A stretch of 22,390 bases of DNA from positions 1 through 22,390 of IMG/VR virus record IMGVR_UViG_3300025630_000066; one strand, written 5' to 3'. The notes beneath the pieces were generated by a model. That model searched no databases, was not told the origin of the DNA, and saw only the letters and a program-made list of their open reading frames with translations. Below are positions 14,436 through 21,645 of this stretch, piece after piece. Source of the stretch: a virus. Position 1 is the stretch's first letter; each line of letters begins with the position of its first letter. A program made the translations under genes and the position numbers.

Positions 14436-16163
14436 ATGGCTCAATTACCTAGCGTTACCCCATACAACATCACCGTGACTGGTGTAGGTGGAGCTGCCAC
14501 GCCAAGCGTTGGCTTTGGAGCGCAGCGCCGGCCAGATGTTGCTTACCAGGCACAGGCTGAATATCAGCAGACGCTATCCAAGACATTGGACAGGATCAGC
14601 GGCGCATTGTTCGGCATGGCCGAGGTTTCTTCTACGAGGGCAGGCAAGCAGTTCGTTGCAGACAATCCATTGTCTAAAGAGCAGCTTGATGCAATGGTTT
14701 CTGGCCAGCCTGGTGTTATTGATATGGGCAGTCCATTTAATGCCTACTCATCTGCTGTGCGTAAAGCCAGGGCTATCGAGCTGTCTGCTTATGCAGAAGT
14801 CGAGGGCCAGAAGATGATCGAGACTTTAGAGGCTGGCGTTGCCATGGGCCAGGTTGAGGCGCTCGATGCCATGAACCAATTTAACAATTTTGTTGATGGC
14901 GTGTCATCCAGCCTGGCCGAACAAGAGCCTGATGCTTCGTTTAAGTTTCGCGCATCGATGGCCACGGTTGGCAGATCCTTCATTAACAATGTAGCCAGCA
15001 CCCAGCTTAAGCGATTCCAAGAGCAGAACCGAGCAATAACCGATGAGTCATTCAGATTGACAATGGTTGACATTGGCCGGGAGCTGACCAAGGAAACGCC
15101 AGATCCACAGGTCTTTGATGTCATTGAGCGCATGAAACAGAAGTTTCTGGTCAACTCAACTACGCTGGTGGGCAATACAAATGCTGGTGCTTATGTCCCC
15201 CGTTTTGAAAAAGAGATCCTCGAGATCCAACAGAACATGGCCAGGAGTTACATCAGTGCTGGCACCGATCCCTATGAGCAGTACGAAAAGATTCGCCTGG
15301 GCAAGACTGGCAATAGCCTGCTAGACGCGCTCACTGGCATTGATGCACCTACTCGCAGGCCGCTGATGGATGCAGCCAGGAAAGAGTTGGTTGAGGCCGA
15401 GTCGATTCGCAAAGAACAAGAGACCATTCAACAAAGGGCAGGCCAGGATCTTGAGGTGTCTTTTGTGGATGCTATGGCCACCAGGGATATGGGGCAGATG
15501 AAGTCTGTTCTGGATCGCCTGCGTAATACTGACCCGACAAGATATGTAAAGCTCAAGAAGGATTATGAGAACTTTGATGCTGTCTTTGCTGTTCGGGATG
15601 ATGGCAATGTTGTGGCTGATCTTGAGCGCAGGCTGAACAATCCCTATGGCGCAAGGGTCACCACTGAAGAGGTTTACAAGTTGCGCGCATTTTTAACTCA
15701 AGGTAGCTTTGCCAAATACATCAATGCAGCCAAGGCTATGGATGATGAGCAAGTTGATTTTATGGTGGATCAAGCGGCATCTAGACTTGGCATGATGCGT
15801 GGCTCAGTAATTAATTCCAATGCATTGCGCCAAAAGAATGAGCGAATTATTGCCGAGTTAAAAGTAAAGTTTTTTGAGGCCAGAAAAACTAACCCGGCGA
15901 TCAATCCGCTGGAGTTCTTGGACAACAACTTTGAGAAAGCCAAGGCAACCACAAGCAAATCAGTAGACTCTGCCCTGGCCTCTAAAGTTCAGTCCCGCCC
16001 CTATAAGACAATTCAAGCCTTTGATGATGCAATTCGCAAGGCAAGCATTGCTCAAAATGCAAAACAGGTTAGTGAATTAACTCGGCAGAAGAATGAACTG
16101 CAAGATGCTATTGACCAGGGCATTATCGATAAGAACGGCAAACTAGTGAAGGGTGGCCAGTAA
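14436..16163 (+). CDS. Internal virion protein, T7 gp15-like
   Basis: The 575-aa product begins 2 bp after the gp14-like stop. It has a short N-terminal beta or linker stretch with ATPSVGFGAQRRPDVAY, then is almost all helical: QTLSKTLDRISGALFGMAEV, EQEPDASFKFRASMATVGRS and many similar blocks. T7 gp15 is a helical protein (747 aa) that forms the periplasmic tunnel during ejection; this one is shorter. There is no enzyme motif. Order (gp14, gp15, gp16) and helix content support the call. The stop overlaps the next start (TAATG). Confidence 0.7.
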   Translation: MAQLPSVTPYNITVTGVGGAATPSVGFGAQRRPDVAYQAQAEYQQTLSKTLDRISGALFGMAEVSSTRAGKQFVADNPLSKEQLDAMVSGQPGVIDMGSPFNAYSSAVRKARAIELSAYAEVEGQKMIETLEAGVAMGQVEALDAMNQFNNFVDGVSSSLAEQEPDASFKFRASMATVGRSFINNVASTQLKRFQEQNRAITDESFRLTMVDIGRELTKETPDPQVFDVIERMKQKFLVNSTTLVGNTNAGAYVPRFEKEILEIQQNMARSYISAGTDPYEQYEKIRLGKTGNSLLDALTGIDAPTRRPLMDAARKELVEAESIRKEQETIQQRAGQDLEVSFVDAMATRDMGQMKSVLDRLRNTDPTRYVKLKKDYENFDAVFAVRDDGNVVADLERRLNNPYGARVTTEEVYKLRAFLTQGSFAKYINAAKAMDDEQVDFMVDQAASRLGMMRGSVINSNALRQKNERIIAELKVKFFEARKTNPAINPLEFLDNNFEKAKATTSKSVDSALASKVQSRPYKTIQAFDDAIRKASIAQNAKQVSELTRQKNELQDAIDQGIIDKNGKLVKGGQ

Positions 16164-18289
16164 TGAATGTCGATGAAATGTACGCAATGGCCTTGGCCAA
16201 TCGACAGACCAATATGCCTGTTGATGTCATGCGCGATGGTTCTGAAGTTGTGAGCGCGAGGGAAGCAGACGGTTCACTTCGCATTGACATTTATGGTGTC
16301 GGCGATCAGGCAAGAGATGAGCAAGTAACTGCACCGCCGCCTGGCATGATGGCACCCATGGCTGCGCCTGCTGCTGCACCTGGCATGACCCAGTCAATGG
16401 TTGAAGAGATGTTTGCCGGTGGTTACCCAGAGGGGGCTGCACCTATGTCAGCTCGCCAGTTCTTGGAGACTGCTGCGGATGTTCCCGCTGGTCTGGTCAA
16501 GGGCGCGATACAAGGCACCATAGGCCTGCCTGGTGACATCGAGAGCTTGACATACGGGGTGCGTGAGATCCTTAACCGCGGGGCCGGTGAGAGCGCCCTG
16601 GATGCGTTTATTAATGGCCTCGAGCAAAAGACCATACTGCCCACCACCGAGAATGTGAAGCAGTGGCTGGACACCAATGTTGGGCCACTGGTGCCTGCTG
16701 GAGCTGATCAGCGCAGGGTAGAAGCTGCCAAGACTGCTGAATTTGTCGGTGAGCTTGGCGGTGCTGGCCAGACCATCATTGAGGGCACCAGGGCTGCTGC
16801 TCGCGGTGCAAGGCAGATTGGCCAGGAGATCCTGACCGAGGCACCTGTTGGGGCTGTTAAGTTAGCCCAAGAGGCTGTGCCATTTGTAATGACCAATGCC
16901 ACGCCCAAACGCATGACCCAGGTTCAAAAGATCGTAGACCAGGGCATTGCTCAGAATATGTCGGCCACCAAGATTCTGCAGGCAGTAGAGTCTAGGACTG
17001 CCCAAAAGGTTACTGGCGCACAAGCTAAAGAGATTAAGCAGTACATCTTCGACAAGACACCCAAGGGTCAGATTTTCTCTGACCAGGCATTTAAGGATCT
17101 GGTGGCGCAGCCGTTCCCCATGGAACCATCGACTGCCAACTTTGCCGGTTCATTTAATGCGGCCATGGACTGGCTTAATACGCTGGATGCCAATGGCCTT
17201 AGAGTTGCAGCTCAAGATGCCAATGCTCGCCTGGCACCGATTCTTGGTACATCCAAGGATGGTAAGGTTAATCGATTGCTGACCACCAATGGCAAGCTGC
17301 TGAAGACCGAGAAGGGTCTTGAGGGTAAGACACCCATTGAGCTTCCTGATGGCCGTAACATTGAGAGCGCAGGCCTGGCTATCTCCCCGGCATTTAAGGT
17401 GGGCAAGTTCAGCACCTGTCCCAATTCTGCAAGCTGCGCCCAAGAATGTCTTGGTAAAACTTCTGGTGGTTACTTTGCTTATGGTGGTGGCGCTGACTTA
17501 GAGGCCATGAAGGGCACCAGGCTCCGCAGCTTCCGCATGACACAGGCCATGTTCAGAGAACCCGAGGCCTTTGCCATCAAGATACACAATGAGATCATTT
17601 CCCTTAAGCGAGCAGCAGAGAAGGGTGGCAACGCCCTGGCCATTCGTTTGAATGTTTTATCTGACATTGATCCCAAGGTGCATGAGGCCATCATCAAGGC
17701 TCACCCTGATGTCTTCTTCTACGACTACACCAAGATGAAGTACAAGCCCATTGCGCCCAACCATCATTACACCTACAGCTCGACTGGTACCACGCAGAAG
17801 GCTGGCCTCAATGGCATGACGGTGGATGTTGAGAATCCTCATACCAACTGGGAACAGATGAAAGCCAGGCTCGATGGTGGTGACAATGTGGCCATGGCCT
17901 TTAGCAGCAAGAAGGCGCTACCTCAAAGTGTTCTCGATGAGGCAACTGGCAAGGTTTATACCGTCATTGATGGGGATGCCTATGACTTTAGGCCAATGGA
18001 CAAGCAGCTACCCGGCACCGATGGCGTGATTATTGGATTAAAGAATAAGGCCATGACTCGCAAGGAATCTACCGCAGTGCAAGATTCCAAAGGGTTCTTT
18101 GTGCCCTATGACCCCCAGTTCTTAAAAGATGGCAAGAAGCTGGCAAGGGATCAGTTTGGTGATCCGATCCCTGGCAATACACAAGTTGTCATTCCTCAAC
18201 AAAAGCGCAGAATTATTGATATAGCGGTTGAAGGAAAAGCCGGGCCATTAGATACTGGTGAGCAAATTACCGAAAGGGCAAAACAATGA
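16163..18289 (+). CDS. Internal virion protein with C-terminal GP88/DUF7227-like domain
   Basis: The 708-aa product lies between the gp15-like and gp16-like genes, where T7 has nothing. Residues about 95-240 hold ETAADVPAGLVKGAIQGTIG, GLPGDIESLTYG, ILPTTENVKQWLD and a Gly/Ala-rich helix, segments that recur in large virion core ('polyvalent') proteins. Residues about 330-640 form another domain: STCPNSASCAQECLG with C419, C425 and C429, then TRLRSFRMTQAMFREPEAF, RLNVLSDIDPKV (495-506) and VFFYDYTKMKYKP (517-529). This order (Cys cluster, 'R..R...m', 'R.n..sDi', 'FY.YTK') fits the GP88/DUF7227 family of phage proteins, whose activity is unknown. The cysteines could hold a metal or Fe-S centre (inference). 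Delivery into the host with the core is inferred. Confidence 0.65.
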   Translation: MNVDEMYAMALANRQTNMPVDVMRDGSEVVSAREADGSLRIDIYGVGDQARDEQVTAPPPGMMAPMAAPAAAPGMTQSMVEEMFAGGYPEGAAPMSARQFLETAADVPAGLVKGAIQGTIGLPGDIESLTYGVREILNRGAGESALDAFINGLEQKTILPTTENVKQWLDTNVGPLVPAGADQRRVEAAKTAEFVGELGGAGQTIIEGTRAAARGARQIGQEILTEAPVGAVKLAQEAVPFVMTNATPKRMTQVQKIVDQGIAQNMSATKILQAVESRTAQKVTGAQAKEIKQYIFDKTPKGQIFSDQAFKDLVAQPFPMEPSTANFAGSFNAAMDWLNTLDANGLRVAAQDANARLAPILGTSKDGKVNRLLTTNGKLLKTEKGLEGKTPIELPDGRNIESAGLAISPAFKVGKFSTCPNSASCAQECLGKTSGGYFAYGGGADLEAMKGTRLRSFRMTQAMFREPEAFAIKIHNEIISLKRAAEKGGNALAIRLNVLSDIDPKVHEAIIKAHPDVFFYDYTKMKYKPIAPNHHYTYSSTGTTQKAGLNGMTVDVENPHTNWEQMKARLDGGDNVAMAFSSKKALPQSVLDEATGKVYTVIDGDAYDFRPMDKQLPGTDGVIIGLKNKAMTRKESTAVQDSKGFFVPYDPQFLKDGKKLARDQFGDPIPGNTQVVIPQQKRRIIDIAVEGKAGPLDTGEQITERAKQ

Positions 18290-18453
18290 TTACCGACATT
18301 GTCCTCGATGAAGAAGACTTCCTTCAGCAGTTCCCAGACAGCGAGCAATATTCAGGCGAGGGTTTACCCTATGCTGACTGGTGGGAAACTGGTGACGATC
18401 CTTTGGCCGTTGGCCAGCCAGTAGATATTGCTACTATGTTTGGGCAGGGGTAA
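18286..18453 (+). CDS. Small acidic protein, unknown function
   Basis: The 55-aa frame starts at ATG 18286, overlapping the upstream TGA (ATGA), and ends at TAA 18451-18453, 3 bp before the next gene. It fills exactly the only gap between the two large core genes, which is strong evidence that it is real. The sequence is acidic (DIVLDEEDFLQQFPDSE) and contains PYADWWETGDDPL; there is no predicted membrane segment. Residue types suggest a short partner peptide for the neighbouring core proteins. The family is not recognised. Confidence 0.7.
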   Translation: MITDIVLDEEDFLQQFPDSEQYSGEGLPYADWWETGDDPLAVGQPVDIATMFGQG

Positions 18454-18456
18454 GCA

Positions 18457-21400
18457 ATGGCAATTCCACCACTAACCCAGAGGCTGGATGATTTGGCGGT
18501 GTCTGCCGCCGAGAGCGAAACAGAAACTGGGAATACCTTAACCCAGCAGCAAGCTATTACGCCGCCTGTTATGAGCCTTGAGCAGGCTATACCAGCAGAA
18601 GCGCCACAGCTTGCCGGCAAGATTGAGGGCTTGCGTGGTCTGGGTAAGATCATTAAAGAAGTTACCAAGACTGAGCCACCCGCCATCACTGATCCGCTCA
18701 AGCGTATTGAAAAGCCCACGCCTGATGCACCAGAGATTTTGCCTGGTGATGTTCCCGCGGATGTCAAGAAAGAGCTGCGTAAGTCTGCACCCGTGCGAGC
18801 CGTTGGTGACAAGATCATTGTGCAGCCAGGATCACCCGAGCTGTTTAAACAGGTCACCGATCTTATGGAGACCGTACCCATTGAGGGCAGGCCACCACAG
18901 GTCAGGCCTAATATGGATATCTTCCAATCTGAGGATGATGTCAAGAAATTTGCTGTTGCAGCCACTGAGCATTGGAAGGATTGGGTGGATGTTCAGCGCA
19001 GAGCTGGCCGCACCCTGGAAGATATCATTGATGAGGCCGAGCGTTTCTTAGTGGTAGAGGGTGCAGGCAAGGCACTCAGGATGCTAATCAACCGCAAGCC
19101 TGGTGACCGGCCATTCTCCGACTTTGAGAGTGCAGCGGTCAAGATTGCCATGATTGACATGGCCAATGTGGTGACCAAAGAGATTGACCTGGCGCTTGAA
19201 ACCAATGACCCAGCGCAACTCCTCAAGGCCACTCGGCTGATGACCATGTACGGTTACAGCAATGCAGCCGAGCTGGGTAATGCTGCTGACTATGGCCGCG
19301 GCCTGGCAGTGCGCCGCATGATCCCTGGGCCTGATGAGGCTAGGGTCAGAAGGATGCAGCAGATTGTCGAACAGGTTCGCCCAGGTGCTACGCCAGTACC
19401 AGGCCAGCCTGGCGTTATGCCGCAGACTGCAACCGAGGTCACGTCTGCCATGCAAGATATTGCAGACATGGGTGGCGCTGACAATGTAAGAAGGGCGCTC
19501 CAGGCTTTTCGGGCGCTACCTGATGTTGACTCCAAGACTAACTTTGCAAGCCGTTTGGCTCGCGCTTCCCTTGATGCTGTTGCTGAGATCTACACAAGCG
19601 CATTGGTATCGAACCCAGTCACGCATTCATTCAATATCTTGGGTACACCGATTCATGTTAGCGCCATGCTGAGTGAGCGTTATGTTGCTGCTGTGGGCCG
19701 CGGTGATAAAGAGATGCAGGCAGCAATTTTTGCTGGTGTTCGTTCAATGCCCAAGTATTTCAACCAGGCACTGGCTGCTGGCACAAGGGCATGGAAGACC
19801 GAGATGCCCTCGGACATGACCACCAAGTTTGACCAGGATCGAATTGCTGTAACGCCGCAAAACTTTGGCGTTGCTCCTGACACCATGCTAGGCAAGACTA
19901 TTGATTATTGGGGCCAGGGCATGAGGCTGCTTGGCTTCCGAGTCCTGACCACTACAGACGAAACTTTTAAAGCATTGCTGCGCGGCATGGAGATGGAGAT
20001 TCAATCCTCCTATGAAGCAGGCAAAGCATTTAACTATAAGCTCGACAATGGCGGCACAGTCGAGGAAGCAACTAATATGGCTCGGGATGCATACCAAAGG
20101 GCCATGGCCTCTGATGCTACCTATGACCAGGCTGCTGAGTTTGCCAAGATTGCCACCTTCCAAGATGACTTGCCGGGTGAGATTCTTGCCCAGGCACAAC
20201 AGGTGATGACGCACCCCATGATGAAGATTATGGGTTTCCCATTCTTCAAGACTCCCATGCAGATTGCATTGCGGGTGCAAGAGCGCAGCCCATTGGCTGT
20301 GATCATGCCAAGGTTCTGGAAGGCTATCGTTTCGCCTGAGACTGAAGAAGCGCGTAGCTTGGCCCTGGCTAAGTTTGGTATGGGTTCGATGATCGGCACC
20401 AGCATCATGGCCTCTGACTACATTAGTGGTGATGAGATCAAGATAACTGGCTATGGCCCCAGCAGGCCAGCAGAGCGTACACGATGGCTTGAGAAGCACA
20501 AGCCCTATGCCGTGGGTGTCAAGCAGCCTGATGGCAGTTATACCTGGATTGACTATTCTCGCTATGACCCGATCTCTGGGGTTATTGCAGGCTGGGCTGA
20601 TACCCGAGACACCATCCTAAAAATGGACGATCCAGAAGCAGAAGAGAATCTGGTTATGGACATGGGCCTGGCCACTTACCAGTACATGACTGAAGCGCAC
20701 CCCATGCTCGACTTTGCTTCGCAGCTTAACTATGTGATGGGTTCCAGCTTTGACCCGGCAGAAGACAAGGTACAGCGCATTATCGAGTTATTCCAGAAGC
20801 AGGCTACCGATGTCGCTATGAATGTTGGCCAGAGCATGGTGACTGGTGGACTGTATCCACAATCACTTGCTGCTACCTTGGAGCGCTACAACAACCCATT
20901 AAGTAGCCAGACCTTGCCAGCAGATCAGTACGACTATCTGAGTGGGCCTGGCTTTAGGATAGGCCTGCGCGGTGCCTATGAGTCTATTCAAAAGGCCAGG
21001 TCTCGCAACCCTCTGTTTTCGGACGATACCTTTGTGCGCCATAACGAATGGTTTGAACCTATCGAAACTGGCCCTGGTGATCTGACCACATTCTTGCCAC
21101 TGCGTATTCAGAACAAGAAATTTAATGCCATCAATACAGAGCTGGAGTCTTTGGGTGGCGGGTTTGAGAAGTTGCAGCCCAGCATGGGCGAGCCAATGAT
21201 CAAGCTCAACGATATGCAGATGGAGCGATACAAGGAGCTGTACAACTACCCCGCTCGCTCAGTCTATGCCCTGGAGGCGCTGGGTGGATTTGACAGCGCA
21301 CTGGTGGGCAACATGACCGATGAGCAGAGAGAGTCTGCCCTGGCTTCTGTCATGGAGATGTACCCACCAAGGAATGAATACCTGTTCTCGGTCATCAGCT

Positions 21401-21645
21401 CGGAGATGTATCAGAATACCTATGACGATATGGGCGAACTGAGAGCTACCGAGAAAGGCGAGAAGCTCGACTATCTCAAAGCTGAGAATGGCCGGTATCG
21501 ATCCATGGCCAAGAAGCTCATGCTCATGGAGTTCCCCGAGCTTCGTAAGCTGATTGAGCAGCGCGATGCATACGAATTGAAGGAGGGCCGTAAACCAAGG
21601 AACCTTCCGCTGTCATCTGAAACCTATCAAAGAGTAATGAAATAA
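18457..21645 (+). CDS. Large internal virion protein, T7 gp16-like / polyvalent type
   Basis: The 1062-aa product is the largest of the window and follows the core genes as gp16 does in T7 (1318 aa). Residues 1-130 are Pro/Glu-rich and flexible. A helical centre follows. Near the C-terminal half, MTHPMMKIMGFPFFKTPMQI (583-602), ITGYGPSRPAE (663-673) and WIDYSRYDPISGVIAGWAD (697-715) form the block typical of gp16-like and large polyvalent phage proteins. T7 gp16 carries an N-terminal lytic transglycosylase; no matching glutamate motif was found here, so peptidoglycan cleavage is probably supplied elsewhere. The role, forming the inner-membrane part of the ejection channel, is inferred from family and order. 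Confidence 0.75.
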   Translation: MAIPPLTQRLDDLAVSAAESETETGNTLTQQQAITPPVMSLEQAIPAEAPQLAGKIEGLRGLGKIIKEVTKTEPPAITDPLKRIEKPTPDAPEILPGDVPADVKKELRKSAPVRAVGDKIIVQPGSPELFKQVTDLMETVPIEGRPPQVRPNMDIFQSEDDVKKFAVAATEHWKDWVDVQRRAGRTLEDIIDEAERFLVVEGAGKALRMLINRKPGDRPFSDFESAAVKIAMIDMANVVTKEIDLALETNDPAQLLKATRLMTMYGYSNAAELGNAADYGRGLAVRRMIPGPDEARVRRMQQIVEQVRPGATPVPGQPGVMPQTATEVTSAMQDIADMGGADNVRRALQAFRALPDVDSKTNFASRLARASLDAVAEIYTSALVSNPVTHSFNILGTPIHVSAMLSERYVAAVGRGDKEMQAAIFAGVRSMPKYFNQALAAGTRAWKTEMPSDMTTKFDQDRIAVTPQNFGVAPDTMLGKTIDYWGQGMRLLGFRVLTTTDETFKALLRGMEMEIQSSYEAGKAFNYKLDNGGTVEEATNMARDAYQRAMASDATYDQAAEFAKIATFQDDLPGEILAQAQQVMTHPMMKIMGFPFFKTPMQIALRVQERSPLAVIMPRFWKAIVSPETEEARSLALAKFGMGSMIGTSIMASDYISGDEIKITGYGPSRPAERTRWLEKHKPYAVGVKQPDGSYTWIDYSRYDPISGVIAGWADTRDTILKMDDPEAEENLVMDMGLATYQYMTEAHPMLDFASQLNYVMGSSFDPAEDKVQRIIELFQKQATDVAMNVGQSMVTGGLYPQSLAATLERYNNPLSSQTLPADQYDYLSGPGFRIGLRGAYESIQKARSRNPLFSDDTFVRHNEWFEPIETGPGDLTTFLPLRIQNKKFNAINTELESLGGGFEKLQPSMGEPMIKLNDMQMERYKELYNYPARSVYALEALGGFDSALVGNMTDEQRESALASVMEMYPPRNEYLFSVISSEMYQNTYDDMGELRATEKGEKLDYLKAENGRYRSMAKKLMLMEFPELRKLIEQRDAYELKEGRKPRNLPLSSETYQRVMK

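Follow-up and report, generated by a model that had tools for sequence, protein, structure and literature searches.

In a virus, IMG/VR record IMGVR_UViG_3300025630_000066, of which positions 1 to 22,390 were analyzed (the window), the gene that lies between those for the gp15-like and gp16-like proteins encodes a fusion protein whose GP88 domain has conserved cysteines. The domain is conserved, it is swapped as a cassette, and the fused form is strictly linked to a small partner gene. Judged from sequence, GP88 would be one of the payloads that a polymorphic ejection-effector slot can hold, a variant of the polyvalent and polymorphic effectors, and the phage particle is probably armed with a protein active in the bacterium during DNA entry. 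The explanation we favor is a modular ejection effector in which a core carrier bears a swappable GP88 payload with a radical-SAM-like barrel and a dedicated partner; our confidence in it is about evenly balanced between true and false. The more specific claim that the podovirus injects a head-packaged radical-SAM-type enzyme with a dedicated 55-residue partner, from a slot that exchanges whole effector domains, is put forward tentatively, at a level of belief clearly short of even.

The region 16163-18289 is a real open reading frame of 708 residues, and its translation confirmed the CX5CX3C (C419, C425, C429), RLNVLSDID and FFYDYTK motifs listed by the first-pass annotation. Its ATG at 16163 overlaps the stop codon of the gp15-like gene (14436-16163) by one base. 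The same annotation had assigned the C-terminal part to GP88/DUF7227, and the first half of that name stands. In the Pfam scan PF17338 (GP88) matched residues 375-613 with an E value of 1.3e-17 and a score of 64.8 bits against the curated cut-off of 24.4, and phrog_1617 matched residues 398-635 of the fused protein with an E value of 1.6e-31. These GP88 matches are far above chance. For DUF7227 (PF23872), neither the search of the window nor the Pfam scan of the protein (E<=1) gave a match; this is a weak negative, as the control search with this family was positive in no genome, and the protein is not assigned to DUF7227.

The protein consists of three parts, all encoded on the + strand. The N-terminal carrier, residues 1-222 (16163..16828), is homologous to the entire 200-residue gene of contig L027 and to carriers that bear different cargo or no cargo at all; its sequence is variable, with the motif GLPGDIE...LPTTE.V..WLD. 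It is followed by a helical linker, approximately residues 223-374 (16829..17284), which is conserved together with GP88 in contigs L001-L026, is absent from L027 and consists of confident helices in the AlphaFold model. What had been described as a core-protein N-terminal half is in fact a carrier of about 222 residues plus this linker, which travels with GP88. The GP88 domain itself (17285..18100) is defined by PF17338 at 375-613, by phrog_1617 and by its invariant positions, and conserved positions extend past the Pfam stretch to about residue 645.

When 55 relatives, both fused and stand-alone, were aligned, the three-cysteine motif C419-X5-C425-X3-C429 (17417..17449, +) was invariant. Also invariant were R495, N497, S500 and D501 in the RLNVLSDI motif (17645..17668, +), all six residues of FYDYTK (519-524; 17717..17734, +), and K378, K381, S539, G604, D608 and L626. 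Since all invariant residues of the GP88 family are kept across the 55 relatives, the window domain retains whatever the family retains. A conserved C-terminal tail, DTGEQITERAKQ (18251..18286, +), completes the protein, and TGEQITE(R/K)A ends all complete relatives of the window type.

The genes of the window run in the order terminase, portal, scaffold-like, capsid-like, gp11-like, nozzle, gp14-like, gp15-like, fused gene and gp16-like, the names given here without a match being assigned by gene order. The portal was identified by PF12236 (E 5e-98) and the nozzle by phrog_376 (E 9.5e-131). The upstream neighbor of the fused gene, the gp15-like internal virion (tunnel) protein gene (14436..16163, +), follows the nozzle and gp14-like genes, and the HMM of its family reaches gp26 of Methylophilales phage MEP301 (E 3.5e-37). 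The downstream neighbor, the gp16-like internal virion protein gene (18457..21645, +), matches the internal virion protein family phrog_6651 (E 3.3e-11), and the HMM of its family reaches MEP301 gp23, annotated as an internal virion protein (E 2.2e-135). By its nozzle protein, MEP301 is the nearest cultured relative (58%), with pelagiphages next at approximately 30%. MEP301 gp25 (161 residues) lies directly after gp26 and has no detectable homology to the carrier, and the carrier alone gave no match among cultured phages. The record is probably partial because relatives reach about 35 kb.

Ejection proteins are mostly viewed as parts of a DNA conduit. The slot of the fused gene suggests that the carrier of about 220 residues would make the protein part of the podovirus head's internal core, alongside the gp14-, gp15- and gp16-like proteins. 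Gene order and neighbors resemble those of the T7-type gp14/gp15/gp16 ejection proteins (PMC8954989). By analogy with T7-type ejection as presented there, the protein would be expelled with the core at infection, and the payload would be in the cell before phage genes are expressed.

Relatives of the fused protein are encoded in 27 IMG/VR contigs, and 26 of the 27 contain the GP88 part. The GP88 cassette (approximately residues 223-708) is 70-83% identical to that of the window, and the gp15-like and gp16-like neighbors in the same phages are mostly 25-30% identical to those of the window or were undetected. The exception is L027, where the gp16-like gene is 75% identical to that of the window and the equivalent of the fused gene (L027:7983-8582) is a 200-residue open reading frame encoding the carrier alone. 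Identity at fourfold sites was 30-41%, so silent sites are near saturation, whereas dN was 0.12-0.23 for the GP88 module and 0.47-0.91 for the carrier. Near-saturated silent sites combined with low dN indicate that the cassette is old and strongly constrained and is no recent import. Recent horizontal transfer as the sole cause of GP88 conservation was ruled out by the near saturation of silent sites.

The possibility was considered that GP88 and the carrier were joined by chance in one lineage and that the fusion has no selected role. A cargo-free sister, L027, does exist, as this explanation would have it. However, GP88 is kept in 26 related contigs with silent sites near saturation and few replacement changes, and the linked partner gene is likewise under purifying selection. 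The conservation data already contradict the chance-fusion explanation, to which we attach next to no credence.

To guard against bias, relatives were also gathered by the nozzle protein instead of the fused protein. The gene that follows the gp15-like gene was readable in 55 of these contigs and complete in 42. The slot between the gp15-like and gp16-like genes holds the carrier N-terminus joined to one of about 12 unrelated C-terminal domains, or to none, the payload classes having been defined by single-linkage clustering of BLAST matches in the region beyond residue 215. Among the payloads are DUF7178 (PF23802, E 9e-27), zeta toxin (PF06414, E 5.7e-13), ART-PolyVal (PF18760, E 4.2e-20) and PBECR5 RNase (PF18814, E 4.3e-23); other classes include a zincin-like domain bearing HExxH and several unnamed domains. 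GP88 was present in two near-identical contigs of this set, L132 and L155, and 9 of the 42 complete genes were payload-free. There are two carrier subtypes, the second of which was recognized chiefly by its slot and N-terminus.

Payloads are exchanged repeatedly. When payload labels are mapped onto the nozzle tree of 65 phages, at least 29 changes are needed. Contigs L174 and L176 share 96.7% identity across the 8.5 kb that end at about residue 247 of the gene; beyond this point they are unrelated until 30 bp before the stop codon, where identity returns (94.2%). The pairs L149/L154 and L189/L191 show the same pattern, being near-identical and differing in payload only. On the nozzle tree the window groups with the payload-free L027 (support 94, long branch), outside the main GP88 clade (support 100). 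L016 is in that clade, and yet the GP88 domains of L016 and the window are 92% identical, so relative to the nozzle gene the cassette has moved.

In sister phages the slot holds zeta toxin, ART, PBECR RNase and further types of cargo, and delivery together with the DNA therefore gives the most coherent reading. The payload would act in the periplasm or the cytoplasm, and payloads such as PBECR5 and ART favor the cytoplasm. Alternatively, GP88 could serve the internal core as a scaffold or in its assembly and never be active in the host. The location of the gene in a structural operon and the strong conservation of the cassette are in keeping with a structural role. On the other hand, phages can do without the payload (L027, L115-L118 and others) or have a toxin-like enzyme in its place, GP88 also occurs as a free early-region gene, and its enzyme-like residues are invariant. 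A purely structural role is accordingly quite improbable in our judgment. Natural payload-free versions of the gene occur at L027:7983-8582 and in L115-L118 and could serve as controls.

Behind the fused gene lies an unannotated acidic open reading frame of 55 residues, MITDIVLDEEDFLQQFP... (18286-18453, +), the ATG of which overlaps the GP88 stop codon (ATGA). Its product, MITDIVLDEEDFLQQFPDSEQYSGEGLPYADWWETGDDPLAVGQPVDIATMFGQG, contains 13 acidic residues and no basic ones. As the spacer at 18290-18456 is a conserved open reading frame, the idea that it acts as RNA or in regulation was dropped. All slot GP88 genes with a readable gp16-like gene downstream have a spacer of approximately 167-250 bases, whereas other payload genes abut the gp16-like gene without one. 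An HMM of the partner gave 42 hits with E<0.01 among 42,886 open reading frames from 227 loci, every one directly behind a fused GP88; several of the loci represent a single contig in overlapping copies, which lowers the number of independent cases, and 15 of the 42 had been used to train the HMM. The partners of L132 and L155, which were outside the training set, were detected with an E value of 1e-6. The SU10-type loci have the partner motif (L052, E 0.0014). The median dN/dS of the partner gene was 0.11, which indicates purifying selection. The partner has no family match, and its sequence retrieved nothing meaningful from solved structures.

The partner may restrain GP88 in the producing cell, serve as a subunit or be a peptide substrate; in the mechanism that we favor it would restrain, assist or be processed by GP88. 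The other cargo classes lack a partner gene, so the arrangement does not follow a general toxin-immunity logic. In a variant of the main explanation, the partner would be the peptide substrate of GP88, as in radical-SAM RiPP systems, rather than an inhibitor or subunit. This proposal would account for a small open reading frame with a conserved core adjoining the gene, and the peptide-modifying radical-SAM enzymes SuiB, EpeE and TigE are among the best fold matches of GP88. Those fold matches are weak, however, the partner contains no cysteines and belongs to no recognized precursor family, and stand-alone GP88 genes have no partner gene. The substrate role is thus improbable, though a shade less so than the structural one.

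Two AlphaFold models were used to evaluate the fold of GP88: residues 225-708 of the window protein (pLDDT 85.7, pTM 0.78) and, independently, the stand-alone 235-residue protein of L060 (pLDDT 90.6, pTM 0.88). Foldseek found no significant match in the PDB for either model, and its best rows, none of them significant, were sugar epimerases and other TIM barrels. Sequence searches of solved structures with the whole protein and with the GP88 profile gave nothing meaningful. When the L060 model was compared with the PDB by VIA-align, the top 14 entries were all radical-SAM enzymes with Z scores of 4.5-6.1, among them NifB (6.1), EpeE (5.6), QueE (5.6), SuiB (5.3) and viperin (5.3); the remainder include TigE, sactipeptide thioether enzymes, MiaB, TYW1 and DesII. 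The first barrel of another kind had a Z score of 4.4. Radical-SAM enzymes also ranked first with the window model. As all Z scores, for both models, were below 8, the match to the radical-SAM fold is a lean and no proof.

A second indication came from profile comparison. The GP88 profile aligned with DUF5131 by hhalign with a P value of 4.3e-4 and an HH probability of 34%, the best local alignment lying outside the cysteines, whereas the best of 60 column shuffles gave a P value of 0.035 and unrelated profiles gave 0.2-0.8. DUF5131 proteins match TIGR04471 (radical SAM mobile pair protein A) with E values of 6e-22 to 2e-4, under the equivalog cut-off. GP88 shares with DUF5131/phage Gp37-Gp68 (PF07505) and TIGR04471 the motif order of three cysteines, SD, TK and S; the cysteine spacing is CX6CX2C in those families and CX5-7CX3C in GP88. 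DUF5131 was not found in the GP88-bearing phages or in the GP88-bearing bacterial genomes searched.

Radical-SAM enzymes hold their cluster after the first barrel strand, and in the predicted models of GP88 the cysteines come after the first barrel strand. In place of the radical-SAM motif CX3CX2C, the window has CX5CX3C and the family CX5-7CX3C; variants of CX3CX2C are known in the radical-SAM superfamily, to which GP88 is not assigned here. GP88 is possibly a divergent radical-SAM-like enzyme. In that event the three cysteines would hold an iron-sulphur cluster, perhaps for SAM-radical chemistry, and the enzyme would modify a host molecule or disarm a host defense.

It is also conceivable that GP88 is a swappable, virion-delivered effector of another kind, with cysteines that bind zinc or a structural cluster and a TIM-like barrel of different chemistry, acting for example on nucleic acid or nucleotides. 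Slot cargo and swapping imply the same delivery logic for such an effector, the cysteine spacing is non-canonical, and the leading Foldseek rows, although none is significant, are sugar epimerases and other TIM barrels. Against this stand the 14 radical-SAM entries that precede all other barrels in VIA-align and the profile link to DUF5131, members of which match a radical-SAM family. We consider this alternative rather unlikely.

GP88 is not confined to the slot. As the first-pass annotation had held, the structural module is not the usual location of stand-alone GP88 genes; in cultured phages they are mostly found in early-type regions near a genome end: GP88 is gp02 of Mesorhizobium podovirus Lo5R7ANS and gp03 in pelagiphages HTVC024P and HTVC134P, and it lies near the right genome end of mycobacteriophage Steamy. 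The nozzle gene of HTVC024P places this phage in the same wider group as the window. Since stand-alone genes exist, virion delivery is not required for the function of the family. Only 14 loci with the GP88 pattern were found in approximately 85,000 prokaryote genomes, and PADLOC linked GP88 to no known defense system. A literature search for PF17338 and "gene product 88" found nothing; a match to the name "gp88" in one paper was merely a gene number.

The fusion is real, as proposed, but it is not a one-off, since it recurs in the 26 related contigs and also in phages with SU10-type portals and in Tunturi_5. In the SU10-type contigs, GP88 fusions adjoin the portal gene and lie near ART-PolyVal or transglycosylase proteins. 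L051 combines a sub-threshold ART-PolyVal match (E 1.3e-5) and GP88 in a single protein of 1,013 residues. Tunturi_5 gp272 combines InPase (E 5.9e-34) with GP88, and its neighbor is a NUDIX-ART-GNAT protein of 1,489 residues. On the GP88 tree, T7-like and SU10-type fused forms make up one clade (support 100) separate from the stand-alone forms, and the Tunturi_5 fusion stands apart. A 407-residue protein at L108:3494-4714, with GP88 at its C-terminus, falls outside the known fused clade. The window domain retains all invariant residues of stand-alone PF17338 proteins and differs from them in its fusion to a putative ejection carrier, two insertions, the helical linker and the linked partner gene.

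Polymorphic toxin systems, reportedly described by Zhang et al. in 2012 (cited in PMC5512222), combine a conserved delivery end with swapped C-terminal effectors. The slot likewise has a conserved delivery end and exchanged C-termini, with 29 changes and sharp breakpoints. Unlike those toxins, its payloads would be delivered by a podovirus core and not by a secretion system, and most have no immunity gene behind them. The polyvalent proteins of phages and conjugative elements (Iyer et al. 2017, PMC5512222) contain ART, zeta-toxin, PBECR and peptidase domains; they are virion or transfer proteins and are thought to act early in the invaded cell. GP88, radical SAM, T7-like phages and internal core proteins are all absent from the main text of that paper. 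As in polyvalent proteins, GP88 lies among virion genes fused to a carrier, which its slot marks as a putative virion protein. ART-PolyVal, PBECR5 and zeta toxin occur at the same slot, and ART-PolyVal (L051, sub-threshold) and InPase (Tunturi_5) in the same protein. The difference is that here one short carrier usually bears a single payload, which is exchanged between near-identical phages. Domain swapping between ejection proteins is known for a peptidoglycan hydrolase (PMC8954989), and the consulted part of that paper does not describe an additional carrier gene located between gp15 and gp16 whose toxin-like domains can be exchanged.

A whole group of podoviruses, relatives of pelagiphages and of the OM43 phage MEP301, appears from sequence comparisons to use one ejection protein as a holder of interchangeable warheads. 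The slot would then be a natural library of candidate effectors that act as infection begins. Among these candidates is GP88, a phage family that is widespread and has no known activity, and it comes with a testable chemistry and a partner gene. What phages inject besides DNA is a long-open question, which is now directly testable in this phage group. If the proposal is true, it would comprise a virion-delivered radical enzyme and a polymorphic-effector system based on an ejection protein.

Several other payloads of the slot have distinctive features. Those of L119 (13977-15584) and L124 (8266-9828) have HEILHH, a zincin-like metallopeptidase signature, and no relevant Pfam match. The DUF7178 payload (L138, L146, L160 and relatives) has a VDTHA-type motif, which may resemble HhH-GPD DNA glycosylases. 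L120, L137, L142, L151 and their relatives have payload classes of approximately 500-750 residues with little or no family match and are candidate new effectors. Finally, unrelated payloads often share an end such as VTGGRRAPxSGA (for example L156, L160, L165 and L174), and this shared type of tail may be a packaging or recombination element.
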